From positions 1 to 32,767 of the forward strand of contig JAITQN010000065.1 of NCBI GenBank assembly GCA_031288865.1: a stretch of DNA of 32,767 nucleotides, read 5' to 3'. Each line of letters begins with the position of its first letter. Position 1 is the first letter of the stretch. The notes beneath the pieces are model-generated. The model was given only the letters and a program-made list of their open reading frames with translations. It had not been told where the DNA came from and made no database searches. The DNA comes from Prevotellaceae bacterium. Its GTDB lineage: Bacteria; Bacteroidota; Bacteroidia; Bacteroidales; UBA932. The position numbers were made by a program, and so were the translations under genes. Below, piece after piece: positions 7,441-21,893 of the stretch.

Positions 7441-8253
7441 CTATGCCGCTTGATGAACCGCTTCCGGCGTCTTAAAGTTCAACGCCCAATGCGGACGACG
7501 AGTATTATACAACTTGATAGCCTCCGCACAGGCCCGCCGGGCATGCTCATAATCTATAAACGTGGCATCCAGCAAGTATTCGTCTTTTAATATCCCATTC
7601 ACCCGCTCGGCCAACGCGTTCTCATAGCAATGGTTCTCCTCAGTCATGCTGATCCGCATCTTATGCTCCCGGAGCAGGGCGACATAATCGGCACAGCAGT
7701 ACTGAACACCCCTGTCGGAATGATGTACTAAACCCTCCGTGTCCCGACAGCCCGAAAGTGCGCCCTTGAGCGCCTGTAAACTGCCCTCTATACTCAAACT
7801 GCGTGAGAGCTGCCAACCTACGACTTTACGAGAGTAACGATCCGTCAAAAGAGATAAATAGCAAAAGCCCCCACGGGTGCGCACATAGGTGATATCCGAT
7901 ACCCACGCCTTATTCGGCTTATCAAGCCGCATATCCTTCAATAAGTTGCCATAACAGCGAAACCGATGATACGACGCCGTCGTACGCGTATAACTCCGCT
8001 TACGGGTTACTAATAAACCCGCTTCTCTGAGCAACCCGAAGAACTTGTCGCGACCCAAACCCAGCATAATCGCATGTAGCCGGTCACCATATACATGATA
8101 CAACTTCCGCCCTCCCAGCCGGGGCTGAAGCCGGCGCTCCTGTATAACCATATCTATGACTAATTCTTTGCCCATGTGCTGCTTTACCTCCTGCTTGTGA
8201 TGTTTGTAATATCCATTCCTGCTTATCTTAAAATATCTGCATAAACCGCTCAC
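7441..8253 (-). CDS. IS3-family transposase OrfB (DDE integrase core)
   Basis: A 270-residue catalytic subunit. An HTH_21-like N-terminus (CRYFKISRNGYYKHH) is followed by the rve integrase core with the DDE residues: D in WVSDITYV, D in HHSDRGVQY and E in ENALAERVNGILKDEY. The C-terminus has the usual NTRRPHWALNFKTPEAVH. The separate frame starts with GTG at 8253, overlapping the orfA stop (GTGA). The orfB frame is, however, open upstream to the A9 run at 8302-8310, and a -1 shift there would give LKKKHRVAAIARCCKERGW joined to SGLCRYF, the usual continuous OrfAB transposase. OrfAB is therefore probably the active product. Confidence 0.92.
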   Translation of the reverse strand: MSGLCRYFKISRNGYYKHHKQEVKQHMGKELVIDMVIQERRLQPRLGGRKLYHVYGDRLHAIMLGLGRDKFFGLLREAGLLVTRKRSYTRTTASYHRFRCYGNLLKDMRLDKPNKAWVSDITYVRTRGGFCYLSLLTDRYSRKVVGWQLSRSLSIEGSLQALKGALSGCRDTEGLVHHSDRGVQYCCADYVALLREHKMRISMTEENHCYENALAERVNGILKDEYLLDATFIDYEHARRACAEAIKLYNTRRPHWALNFKTPEAVHQAA

Positions 8254-8639
8254 GCGCCACCCTCGCTCCTTACAACATCGCGCAATGGCGGCAACGCGGT
8301 GTTTTTTTTTAATGCCGCCCGGTCAATGCCGGCTACCTCCAGCAACGTCTCTAATGCATCATACGCCAAGGACTTGTCGGCCAACGCAATCTTCAAGCGC
8401 TGAACCTCCTTCCGTAATGCTTTTAACTCATCTGTCTCGTGTCTCATCTTTACATATATTACTTCGTTTAACAACTGCGGATACCCATACTGCTTAACCC
8501 ACTTCTTTACCGTATCACCTCCGGTAATCCCATACTTCCGGCTAAGCTCCCGTATGCTTATTCCGCTCTTTAGTTCTTCTACTACTTTCTGCTTAAAGCA
8601 AAGACTATACCGATAGCTCTTTCTTGTACATTTTGTCAT
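8250..8639 (-). CDS. IS3-family OrfA (HTH DNA-binding protein)
   Basis: A protein of about 129 residues starting MTKCTRKSYRYSLCFKQKVV. The start was chosen for the strong GGAGGAG ribosome binding site directly upstream, although the frame is open to 8678. Residues 10-60 form the helix-turn-helix that recognises IS ends (SIRELSRKYGITGGDTVKKWVKQYG). A leucine-zipper-like coiled coil follows (LKALRKEVQRLKIALADKSLAYDAL). The run of nine A's near codon 110 (coding strand, complement of 8302-8310) is the expected slippery site for producing OrfAB. OrfA alone usually represses transposition. Confidence 0.9.
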   Translation of the reverse strand: MTKCTRKSYRYSLCFKQKVVEELKSGISIRELSRKYGITGGDTVKKWVKQYGYPQLLNEVIYVKMRHETDELKALRKEVQRLKIALADKSLAYDALETLLEVAGIDRAALKKNTALPPLRDVVRSEGGA

Positions 8640-8664
8640 CTCTCCTCCGCTTTTAGGTGTCAAC

Positions 8665-10078
8665 CTATACCAGGACATGACACCAAGCTCCTACTTCTTC
8701 GCTCCCAGCTCCTTTATCCTTTATGCTTCTAAATTCGAGTTCAGAGCCATGACCGAGAAATCCGATATGACCGCTTTTGTTGGACAGCCCCGGATGCTTC
8801 TGTTTGTCGATGGTAGCGGTGAAGTTGTTGCTTGCTTCGGCGATGTCTCCGTCGAGTATTACCGTGCCGTTGAGTGTTACTTTGATTTTGTTACCGTTGG
8901 CAACCACCTCCTGCGTGTTCCATTCGCCGGTAGGCTTCAGGTATCCGCGCTTTGCGGGGATTACGCCGTACACCGAGCCGTGGTACTGATATACCGCGAG
9001 GTCTTTATATACGTCCGCCTCGTTGTCGAGTATCTGCAACTCCATGCCGAAGTAAGCAGCGCCGCCATCAAGCGGAGTGCGGATGCCGAGGCCGTTGTTT
9101 GCCGCAGACGTCAGCTTAAACTCAAAGCGCAGGATGAAGTCGGCATACTCCTTTTCGGTGTAGAGGTTGCCGTACCCGCCGCTGGAGGGGATGCACGCAA
9201 TCGCCCCGCTGCGGGCAACGTAGTCCTTGAGGTTACCCACCCAGCCGGTCATGTCTACGCCGTTGAACAGCGGCACAAAGCCTTCGGCTTTTTCAGCGGA
9301 CGACACCTCGTAGGGATTCGGACGGAGTGTTTCGCGAATGTAAATATCACGGTATTCCACGCGTGTGCCGTGCGCTTGCAGCTCAAGCTGCTCTTTGGGG
9401 AAAATCGGCAGCGACCTGTCCCAGTAGTTTTCGAGGATAACGTTGTCGGTTACTAATTGCCCGTTGAGGTAGACGGTCACCCTGTTTCCAACCATTTTTA
9501 TGTAGAACGAGTTCCACTCGTTCACCGCGTTATCGGCAACCAGCAGCGGTTTGGATTCGTTCTTTTGGTTGTTGTACAGGCCGCCCGAACCGACCTGCGC
9601 TCCGACCGATACGCGCGAAGTGTCCCATATCTGCACCTGCGGCGTTCCGCGAAGGTAAACTCCGGCATCGCCTTCCGGCGTGATTTTCCAGTCGACGTAG
9701 ATCTCAACGTCGGCGTAGTCTTTTACCGTGCAGAGGTTGTCGTAGCCCTTGCCGTCAAACACCAGCAACCCGTTTTCGGCGCTCCAGTCGCGGCGCATAA
9801 TTTCATCCGCCGCCTTTTGCTTTGCCGTCATTTTGCTGCGCTTAATCGGGCCTTCCACCAAGCCTTTCCACCCCGTCAGGTCTTTTCCGTTAAAGAGGGA
9901 TACAAAACCTTCGTCCTTCGGCAGCAACGACAGATGCTTTTGGATTTCCTGCTTTTGGTACTCCGCCTCGGGGTCTTTGTTTACGGCGATGGCCTTGCTG
10001 AGCAACGCCGAAACCTCGCTGCCGTAGTAGGCGGGGTTGGCTATGGCTATCCGGCGGACGGCCTGCACCGCCGCCGTC
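8665..10078 (-). pseudogene. Double-DUF1080 (3-keto-glycoside hydrolase-like) gene, 5' truncated and 3' altered
   Basis: The segment encodes a short helical stretch resembling the end of a HEAT-repeat region (AAVQAVRRIAIANPAYYG), then two DUF1080 domains: the first begins FVSLFNGKDLTGWKG, the second FVPLFNGVDMTGWVG. DUF1080 (PF06439) includes enzymes that cleave 3-keto-glycosides made by Gfo/Idh partners. There is no native start or signal peptide; the frame emerges from the middle of a Gfo/Idh gene at a deletion junction near 10066-10078. At the other end a 7-bp tandem duplication changes the expected ending RSIKELGAKK-stop into RSIKDKGAGSEEVGAW, and the IS3 element then supplies the final codons and stop. 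Both domains look otherwise intact, but expression and export are doubtful. A chimera created by assembly is the alternative. Confidence 0.75.
8711..8724. repeat. 7-bp tandem duplication that shifts the DUF1080 reading frame
   Basis: CCTTTAT occurs twice in a row (ATAAAGG twice on the coding strand). Removing one unit restores the frame to EFRSIKELGAKK-stop, which resembles the usual DUF1080 C-terminus. The duplication therefore looks like a recent mutation that preceded, or is independent of, the IS insertion 29 bases away. Confidence 0.75.
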
Positions 10079-20141: not shown

Positions 20142-20185
20142 ATAAAAAAGCGTGCAAACTTTTTAAAAATTGGTTTACACGCTTT
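20142..20185 (-). terminator. hairpin terminator of the ATPase gene
   Basis: On the minus strand AAAGCGTGTAAAC pairs with GTTTGCACGCTTT (one G-U pair) around a 13-base loop and runs into TTTTTT. It lies about 50 bases after the ATPase stop. The outer arm also forms the left member of the inverted repeat flanking the ATPase cassette. Confidence 0.65.
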
Positions 20186-20194
20186 GGGGCGATT

Positions 20195-20225
20195 GGGGGT
20201 AGGCGACCGCAAGGGTCGCCCCTAC
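20195..20225. repeat. REP-like imperfect palindrome
   Basis: GTAGGCGACC and GGGTCGCCCCTAC form a stem with a GCAA loop and a small bulge. It lies 8 bases after the ATPase stop. Its GC-rich composition differs sharply from the AT-rich intergenic DNA around it, as expected for a dispersed repetitive element; copies elsewhere in the genome cannot be checked here. Confidence 0.6.
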
Positions 20226-20232
20226 ACTGGAT

Positions 20233-21795
20233 TCATAATCCCACTACCGTAACTCTTTCCTCATTTTCATCCCATTTGATACGCTCCTCCCAGGCGGCTT
20301 TTTTGCTTTCGCTGCGGCGGTCGAAGATGAGCAAGTAGAGCGGCGCGCCGGGCGCTTTCCTGTCCTGATAGCGTTTTATCTGTTGCAGGCCTTCCTCCAG
20401 CACGCGTTCATAACTTTTGCTGTCGCGCAAAACTTTTATTTCCATGATACATTTATAGCCATGATATTCTACGTACAAGTCCATTTTCCCACTTCCGGCG
20501 GCTACTTCCCGGTCTATCCGTCCGCCTCCGTTCAATATCCGCTGCAAAAATGCCAGTAACAACAAATGCGGGAACGCTTCCGTGTAATCCGATTTTGCTT
20601 CCCACAGTTCGGAATTGTCCCGCCAGAACTGCTGAAATTCCTGCAGCAGGCTGTCCATGTCTAAGCTGCCGTCCGGTTTCTGCCATTTGAAGTTGGAGGG
20701 CGGCGGCATCATAATCTGCATGCTCGAATTTACCACCCGCGTAAGAATTTCCGTATAAATGGGATTGGATATGCTCAGTCCTTTATTGGCGTCAAACGTT
20801 AGCAGTCCCAAATCCATGGCCTGCTGCACGCCCGGACTGTCGAGGTTCAGGTCCATGTTCGTTTCGCCCGAAATGACGGTCTCCACAACAGGCTTTACCG
20901 CTGCATCCTGCATCCGGTAAACCAGCGAATCCAGATGTGTCTCGCGCGCCTCGATCATCTGCCGGCGCGCCTCCACTATATGCTTTAATTCGACGGTTTC
21001 CGTGCTCCTGTAGTCCAAAACCCTTGTGGTCGCCCGGTCAAACAGGTTGTTGACAATCCACGGCTGCCCCTGCGACTGTTCCCAAACATAATCCAATGCT
21101 TCCTGCGTAATTCTTTGTCCTGTTTCGGCTGTCCGTTGGGCAAAAAGGCGAGTTACGTCTTCTTCCGAGAAATTTTTTAACAGGATAGAATCCTTCTTGA
21201 TGTTAAACGGCGAGCCGGGATTCGGCGCCACGCCGTCCTTGCTTTGCGTAATGTAGTCTTTCAAGTCGCGCATGCCGACAATGGCCACGGATATGGGGAA
21301 TTTTCCCACGCCGCGGGAGGCAAAACCGCCACGCAACTGCCGCAGAAAACTGATCAGGGCATCACCGGTCAAGACATCCACTTCGTCGAAAAATACGATT
21401 AGAGGCTTCGGCGCAACAAGTTTTGCCCAGTTCCCCATGATATTGCTGAGCATAAAACCTGGATCCGCCGTGTCTGCTTGAGGAACAGAAAGGCTGAAAT
21501 CCCCGGCATACTTTCGTATTGATTCGCGAATCAATGGGATTGCACGTTCCACATCAGTCATCCCCTGTGTTATTTCCACGCTCACGTAACAGGCCACATA
21601 TTTACTTGTAGCGTTGAGTTCGTGCATCCAGTTTATCAGGAAGGTTGTTTTCCCTGTCTGACGCGGCGCATAAAGCACCCAATAGAGCCGTTCGTCAAGA
21701 TAACGGCTTAAATTCGCCCCAACCAAACGCTCTTCGGGGGGCAACATATAATGTTCATCCGGGCGGCAGGGACCTGTAGTGTTAAACGATTTCAT
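20233..21795 (-). CDS. AAA-family ATPase with C-terminal PD-(D/E)XK nuclease-like domain
   Basis: A 520-residue protein of a family seen in many Bacteroidota and other phyla, often without a known role. The N-terminus MKSFNTTGPCRPDEHYMLPP is followed by a Walker A motif (APRQTGKTTF, lysine at residue 49) and Walker B (LIVFFDEVDVL), with a sensor-like VAIVGMRDLKDYI. The last 100 residues have the PD-(D/E)XK pattern: GKMDLYVEYHGYKCIMEIKVL with D, E and K in the expected places, then QQIKRYQDRK. It may bind or cut DNA using ATP; a defence or selfish-element role is possible but unproven. The start at 21795 follows a TATCTTTG -7 box. It is flanked by inverted repeats and unrelated to its neighbours. 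Confidence 0.82.
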   Translation of the reverse strand: MKSFNTTGPCRPDEHYMLPPEERLVGANLSRYLDERLYWVLYAPRQTGKTTFLINWMHELNATSKYVACYVSVEITQGMTDVERAIPLIRESIRKYAGDFSLSVPQADTADPGFMLSNIMGNWAKLVAPKPLIVFFDEVDVLTGDALISFLRQLRGGFASRGVGKFPISVAIVGMRDLKDYITQSKDGVAPNPGSPFNIKKDSILLKNFSEEDVTRLFAQRTAETGQRITQEALDYVWEQSQGQPWIVNNLFDRATTRVLDYRSTETVELKHIVEARRQMIEARETHLDSLVYRMQDAAVKPVVETVISGETNMDLNLDSPGVQQAMDLGLLTFDANKGLSISNPIYTEILTRVVNSSMQIMMPPPSNFKWQKPDGSLDMDSLLQEFQQFWRDNSELWEAKSDYTEAFPHLLLLAFLQRILNGGGRIDREVAAGSGKMDLYVEYHGYKCIMEIKVLRDSKSYERVLEEGLQQIKRYQDRKAPGAPLYLLIFDRRSESKKAAWEERIKWDENEERVTVVGL

Positions 21796-21819
21796 AATTT
21801 TTTGCCAATGAATTTCCCG

Positions 21820-21827
21820 CAAAGATA
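21820..21827 (-). promoter_or_regulatory. -7 promoter box of the ATPase gene
   Basis: TATCTTTG on the minus strand matches the Bacteroidota TAnnTTTG box and lies 24 bases before the ATG. No good -33 TTTG element was found at the usual spacing. Confidence 0.55.
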
Positions 21828-21893
21828 CGAAACAATTCTTAATTAAATTAAGCGTGTAAACCAATACGTCAAAGAACCATTTTTATGTAGGAT

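Follow-up and report, generated by a model that had tools for sequence, protein, structure and literature searches.

The ATPase-nuclease gene analyzed here, located within a stretch of 32,767 nucleotides from a Prevotellaceae metagenome-assembled genome (the window), is enclosed by ends that recur around quite different genes in other gut Bacteroidales. Based on genome comparison, a family of non-autonomous mobile cassettes is considered probable, featuring fixed boxA-like and terminator ends, exchangeable cargo and read-through by the host operon. The same ends around varied genes, together with full and cargo-less states of one site, identify a mobile cassette with interchangeable cargo, of which the ATPase is one. 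The main finding is this family of cassettes headed by a boxA-like motif; a literature search of open-access full text retrieved no description of these cassette ends.

Within the window, the 16-mer ATTGGTTTACACGCTT occurs at positions 20169-20184 on the forward strand and at 21850-21865 on the reverse strand, as exact copies spaced by 1665 nt and located 52 and 55 nt beyond the ATPase reading frame as matched. At up to three mismatches, just these two copies were detected in the window, and two or more similar copies appeared in 6 of 100 shuffled windows. The whole MAG (1.63 Mb, 71% complete) likewise contained just this pair at up to two mismatches. A preliminary description had reported exact 16-bp inverted repeats, a promoter box and a terminator belonging to the gene itself, and a repeat doubling as a hairpin arm. 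All of these were recovered, the repeat at 20169 forming the 5' arm of the terminator. Its limits for the unit, 20169-21865, rightly denoted a bounded cassette but proved slightly short, the conserved ends reaching from approximately 20142 to 21877 (Table 1). In many of the cassettes, a box resembling TATCTTTG comes after the left end. Small GC-rich palindromes of a REP-like type (GTAGGGGCG...CGCCCCTAC) were observed near the cassette ends in the window and at loci L246, L249 and L314. Elsewhere in the window (7441-8678), an overlapping ORF pair beside glycan genes resembles an IS3-type transposase by eye.

Table 1. Features of the cassette and its ends in the window.
Feature	Position	Strand	Basis or remark
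Whole cassette, from the left end through the right-end T-run	20142..21877	-	Both ends fit the consensus drawn from 42 left ends and the 28 right ends paired with them
Left end GTTCTTTGACGTATTGGTTTACACGCTT	21850..21877	-	Sequence; consensus; pattern in 24/398 family genomes
boxA-like motif GTTCTTTGACGTATTGG	21861..21877	-	Same motif before tRNAs (IMG/VR contigs); related motifs in rRNA leaders/spacers
Left arm ATTGGTTTACACGCTT	21850..21865	-	Exact complement of 20169-20184
Promoter-like box TATCTTTG	21820..21827	-	Sequence
Cargo: AAA+ ATPase with PD-(D/E)XK C-terminus, 520 aa	20233..21795	-	ATG at 21795, stop at 20233; P0001
Small palindrome, REP-like, located after the stop codon and ahead of the terminator	20199..20225	.	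Sequence; absent in the G001 relative
Right end: terminator hairpin and T-run	20144..20185	-	5' arm 20169-20185, 3' arm 20148-20159; -15.8 kcal/mol

In the relative from genome G001 (89%), the 3' hairpin is kept and the flanks differ. The orthologue of the downstream neighbour in genome G002 (87%) has an upstream neighbour other than that of the window, and a SusC-like paralogue in G001, checked for an empty site of the window cassette, contained none. In a looser search within the genus, the upstream arm of the window, GTTTACACGCTTAATT, recurred on contigs G001:C143 and G002:C109, where the hairpin follows 0.9-1.1 kb further on, with a DUF3791/DUF3990 gene pair, not the ATPase, in between. 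The left end extends to the 25-mer CTTTGACGTATTGGTTTACACGCTT, which at up to three mismatches was located 41 times across the family, in 24 of the 398 genomes and five of the 25 genera; the reversed pattern was detected in none of the 398. Since the ends recur elsewhere and the reversed control does not, the repeats of the window are not due to chance. An order-wide draw of 393 genomes yielded the left-end pattern in five, namely the own genome and four genomes from three other Bacteroidales families, all four with the hairpin, and the reversed pattern in one. Viral contigs contained no full left end.

Of the 45 pattern matches that were read, three proved to be right ends in reverse. The other 42 are left ends and hardly vary between positions -3 and +21 (GYTCTTTGACRTATTGGTTTACACG). 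The right end consists of AAGCGTGTAAACCAAT…GGTTTRCACGCTTTTTT, a terminator hairpin, and was recognized downstream for 28 of the 42 left ends, many of the surveyed genomes being fragmentary MAGs. This count includes L266 and excludes L286, which lacks a right end of its own, the apparent one belonging to a neighbouring element. At four left ends the contig runs out within 900 nt, and at nine the right end is absent despite at least 900 nt of contig (L260, L262, L270, L274, L283, L287, L288, L290 and L291). A control for the hairpin on the mirror side gave 0 of 42. Cassettes range from approximately 0.15 to 1.7 kb in length. One could regard these ends as merely a shared terminator with a regulator site that spread when similar intergenic regions were shuffled, and the right end is indeed a good intrinsic terminator; the left ends, however, are conserved although cargo, sites and genera are unrelated, and they pair with right ends, which makes this explanation hardly credible.

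The arrangement of the arms also recalls integron gene cassettes, which likewise hold a single gene or toxin-antitoxin (TA) pair with a 3' hairpin. In such a scheme the hairpin would be an attC-like site and the left arm a direct repeat resulting from integration. The left arm and the 3' arm of the hairpin are direct repeats and the 5' arm is inverted, as in the topology of integron cassettes, and two consecutive cassettes are present in tandem on G091:C35. The integron core consensus is GTTRRRY, whereas the core observed here is GTTTRCA, with T at the fourth base of GTTTACA (position 16) in 42 of 42 left ends. Moreover, most sites are single and dispersed, and the conserved left end of about 25 nt is longer than an integron core. 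An integron-like origin is therefore regarded as very improbable.

For the cassette family proposed here, cargo was assigned by Pfam; 40 proteins were submitted, five of which remained without a family. The assigned families comprise DUF3791, DUF3990, PIN, PIN_3, YafQ, DUF4160 with DUF2442, nucleotidyltransferase, HepT-like, AAA_14-DUF4143, Bro-N, RhuM, GNAT, DUF5618, PDDEXK_2 and Y1_Tnp. Furthermore, a Gp49-like protein (sub-threshold) with HTH_3 was found, and Abi_2 and 23S IVP matches were sub-threshold. Some of the proteins in this list follow a left end without a recognized right end, and their status as cargo is less certain. Where both ends are present, the cargo is DUF3791/DUF3990, PIN, YafQ, HigB-like, MntA/HepT, AAA_14-DUF4143, GNAT, the ATPase-nuclease described here, or nothing at all; outside the window it consists mostly of TA pairs. 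A second ATPase-nuclease relative, L283, has the left end 63 nt ahead of its ATG and lacks the right end.

Comparison of related sites provided further insight into cargo turnover. The flanks of cassette L227 (G001) align on both sides with L229 (G002), where only 41 nt including a remnant of the right end are present. L266, from another genus (G077), features the downstream flank of L227 together with left and right ends, without cargo. A 38-nt repeat flanks the cargo of L227 at offsets 43 and 1035 and is present as a single copy in the cargo-less L266. G002 moreover carries a decayed copy of the TA cassette of L227 one gene further on. Likewise, L264, L290 and L293 have their upstream flank in common but differ in content: L264 holds a PIN pair, L290 an inserted Y1 transposase, and L293 a remnant of 207 nt without cargo. 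As judged from the aligned sequences, cargo was gained, lost and exchanged within both groups. Comparison of L227 and L229 by eye revealed no clean pre-insertion site with a target duplication. Among the loci read, neither a transposase bearing these ends nor an excised form was observed. The one transposase at a left-end locus, the Y1 enzyme of L290, was set aside as the mover, since this locus lacks the right end and lies amid REP-like sequence. Repeated AACCTCATTT...CAACCTCAGTAGC by a Y1 transposase gene looks REP/RAYT-like (L290 1119-1206, L283 2930, L101/L108).

The first 17 nt of the left end match motifs located upstream of tRNA genes in IMG/VR contigs. The motif GTTCTTTGACATATTGG was detected at no fewer than 112 distinct sites in 120 IMG/VR stretches, of which 108 offered room for tRNA scoring. 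Among these 108 listed sites, a same-strand tRNA follows within 400 nt at 80, in 56 cases at a distance of 7-14 nt; a tRNA lies within 400 nt upstream at 46 of the 108, as expected in tRNA clusters. Looser boxA-like forms are present in rRNA leaders and spacers of relatives, best represented by GTTCATTGACATATTG and GTTCTTTGACATAATG, these rRNA-like matches having 2-4 mismatches and all rRNA operons read originating from genomes without cassettes. By position the motif fits a boxA, lying upstream of tRNA genes and, in weaker matches, in rRNA leaders and spacers. A hairpin matching the arm was found at 0 of 114 viral boxA-like sites compared with 25 of 39 other loci. In summary, the left end looks as if it begins with a Bacteroidota boxA, and this start of the left repeat points to a role in transcription, either in addition to one in transposition or in its place. 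On the viral side, GTTCTTTGACATATTGG stands directly before tRNA genes in many of the presumed Bacteroidota phage contigs (IMG/VR, L315-L434), which suggests boxA antitermination of phage tRNA arrays.

With the gene defined as the longest open frame nearby, the upstream gene is co-directional with the cassette in 35 of 41 cases and the downstream gene in 22 of 26. This bias with the operon speaks against the possibility that a transposon family with ordinary terminal inverted repeats accounts for the ends, in which case the cassettes would be moved in trans and their likeness to boxA would reflect AT-rich chance or a favoured target. In favour of it, the left end in reverse complement, boxA part included, resembles the arm and loop of the right end, as illustrated by the three backwards right ends among the 45 matches. 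Moreover, transposons of the Tn3 family can carry TA genes as passengers (PMC7157771). The boxA half, however, is nearly invariant at left ends and eroded at right ends, the motif precedes tRNAs by 7-14 nt at 56 viral sites, and no transposase with these ends was seen; the transposon explanation is thus considered rather unlikely. Nevertheless, the cassettes do have conserved ends around passenger genes without a transposase, as mobile insertion cassettes do. With these and with TA-carrying transposons (PMC7157771), they share conserved ends, the lack of an internal transposase, and passengers of the PIN, Gp49 and HEPN types of TA genes. They differ in that one end is boxA-like and the other a terminator, and a known transposon family with such ends did not turn up.

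For the proposed family of cassettes, pairing between the ends was evaluated. In 23 of 25 elements (the mis-paired L286 being among the 25), the left arm and the 5' arm of the terminator form a duplex whose stability exceeds that of the local terminator. In the window the duplex reaches -24.4 kcal/mol, compared with -15.8 kcal/mol for the local hairpin, with energies that leave out the cost of the 0.4-1.7 kb loop. The left arm is exact over 10 nt in 19 of the 25 elements. Among the six non-exact arms, three are G-U compatible, L285 has one mismatch, L286 is mis-paired, and L268 is incompatible, its arm change being uncompensated. Both arms changed together in L314 and in the second element on L285; covariation is thin (two cases) because the arms hardly vary. 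Conservation of both arms would also be expected if a recombinase binds them.

From these features, the following course of transcription is proposed. Each cassette would combine a fixed left end, composed of the boxA-like motif and an arm, with a fixed right end, composed of the complementary arm followed by the terminator, and would hold one exchangeable gene or gene pair under its own promoter. When RNA polymerase enters from the host operon, boxA would load Nus factors and tether the left arm. The terminator would then fail in the read-through RNA because the left arm captures its 5' arm, and the operon would be read through. Transcripts starting at the internal promoter would stop at the terminator because they lack the left arm. 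The insert would thus be nearly invisible to the operon, much as boxA and a long-range stem enclose the 16S gene in pre-rRNA. A separate enzyme would move the cassette in trans. L264, L290 and L293 are located after an upstream terminator, so read-through would matter less there.

In pre-rRNA, boxA adjoins the 5' arm of the stem from which 16S rRNA is processed (PMC4807359). The cassettes resemble this pre-rRNA bracket in having boxA directly before an arm able to pair far downstream around an insert; they differ in enclosing protein genes with their own promoter and in that the right arm doubles as part of the terminator. Similarity also extends to a second rRNA feature, cargo at two left-end loci weakly matching 23S IVP. 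Intervening sequences of rRNA feature inverted arms around an insert in 23S rRNA; the cassettes share such arms but reside in operons of protein genes.

The 520-aa protein encoded by the window cassette was assigned to PF08011 (PDDEXK_9) with 28.6 bits against a cut-off of 25.5. Its AAA part is sub-threshold in Pfam and clear in the structure model (mean pLDDT 85, pTM 0.65). This model matches archaeal Walker ATPases (2qen, E 2.9e-10, TM-score by target 0.65; 2fna, E 9.6e-9) and also Cdc6/Orc1, RuvB and clamp loaders. Across 32 homologues, the Walker A residues and the DE of Walker B are invariant, as are D439, E452 and K454, with E430 nearly so; both predicted activities therefore appear intact. 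PF09820 (AAA-ATPase_like) gave no hit in the window ATPase at E up to 1, a PDB search by sequence returned no chain, PADLOC returned weak hits only, and viral contigs yielded neither an ATPase relative nor a phage record.

ATPase matches were present in 12 of 59 genomes searched, the own genome included. The best 80 GTDB hits span Bacteroidota, Spirochaetes, Verrucomicrobia, Planctomycetes, Chitinispirillales and others, with mis-binning possible for hits on short contigs; the closest full-length relatives among these 80 share 58-62%. Isolate codes among the GTDB hits presumably denote termite-gut MAGs. In the own genome, two further relatives (L041 6038 on C121 and L042 10195 on C15), both truncated by contig ends, are 95% alike over 516 nt, the likeness ending at the stop codon.

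Copy numbers were compared among 18 genomes chosen for holding hits. Omnitrophus magneticus (G070) contains at least 83 ATPase-nuclease copies (83 scored of 165 candidates), partly as head-to-tail 1.6-kb units in arrays filling whole contigs (L102, L103, L120). One SAR324 genome holds 39 copies and a Chitinispirillales MAG 24. On Pseudanabaena plasmids (L160-L167, L187), two strains each carry one copy on each of four large plasmids, eight in all. On these plasmids a tyrosine recombinase often adjoins the gene, the upstream region is long and conserved with a palindrome, and a ninth plasmid retains a remnant consisting of the upstream part and the 3' end only. The multicopy state could imply that the ATPase-nuclease itself is mobile, with the repeats being incidental, and is moved by its own nuclease, which the preliminary description had named as an option beside movement in trans. 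Homology between close copies mostly stops at the stop codon with unrelated DNA thereafter, which favours this reading, downstream similarity being retained in L050/L068, L084/L111 and the Omnitrophus tandem copies. However, the homology begins anywhere from about 20 to 600 nt upstream without a common terminal sequence being seen, and the cassette ends occur without the ATPase; movement by its own nuclease is accordingly not supported and rated improbable.

Of 85 distinct full homologues, eight were dropped for short flanks, and the remaining 77 were searched for inverted repeats with 150-nt flanks. The window alone featured a strong unexplained one. The inverted repeat of L126 scored 29, compared with 16 for the window, and was rejected since it sits in a repeat that is also direct; those of L032 (15) and L117 (14) are AT-rich or near-promoter matches. 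The supposition that the repeats belong to the ATPase and mark its homologues could not be upheld: they enclose many other genes, and a comparable repeat is absent from the other 76 of the 77, a few repeat-rich, AT-rich or tandem cases aside. The ATPase with its PD-(D/E)XK-like C-terminus was confirmed. That the cassette is self-contained is supported by its clear limits, the hairpin marking one of them, its patchy occurrence, and a site that is occupied in one genome and cargo-less in another. Expansion and horizontal spread have been published for the sibling DUF1703 proteins (PMC6387759, PMC1913061). As described there, DUF1703/PDDEXK_9 proteins with an AAA-ATPase part likewise combine AAA+ with a following PD-(D/E)XK, are multicopy and are horizontally spread, whereas the N-terminal part of the window protein, compared with the two-domain DUF1703 family of Cardinium, lacks PF09820 and represents a different AAA subfamily. 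The window ATPase is cargo, and plausibly a selfish or defence gene like the other cargo.

Operon inserts normally silence downstream genes. It is tentatively proposed, with some doubt, that the cassettes represent a previously undescribed type of transcription-transparent insertion, in which cargo would reside in operons without polarity by means of pre-rRNA-like folding of the read-through RNA. The cargo, toxin-antitoxin pairs or ATPase-nuclease, would stay transcriptionally insulated, and the shell would persist at a site through gain, loss and replacement of its cargo. If true, an antitermination signal of rRNA would have been borrowed to avoid polarity, and this would explain how single toxin-antitoxin genes persist in metabolic operons such as polysaccharide-use loci. 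The cassettes would also represent a direct test of boxA working beyond rRNA, tRNA and phage RNAs. Moreover, a boxA-like motif with a matching downstream hairpin offers a simple sequence rule by which such cassettes and their cargo could be sought across Bacteroidota.
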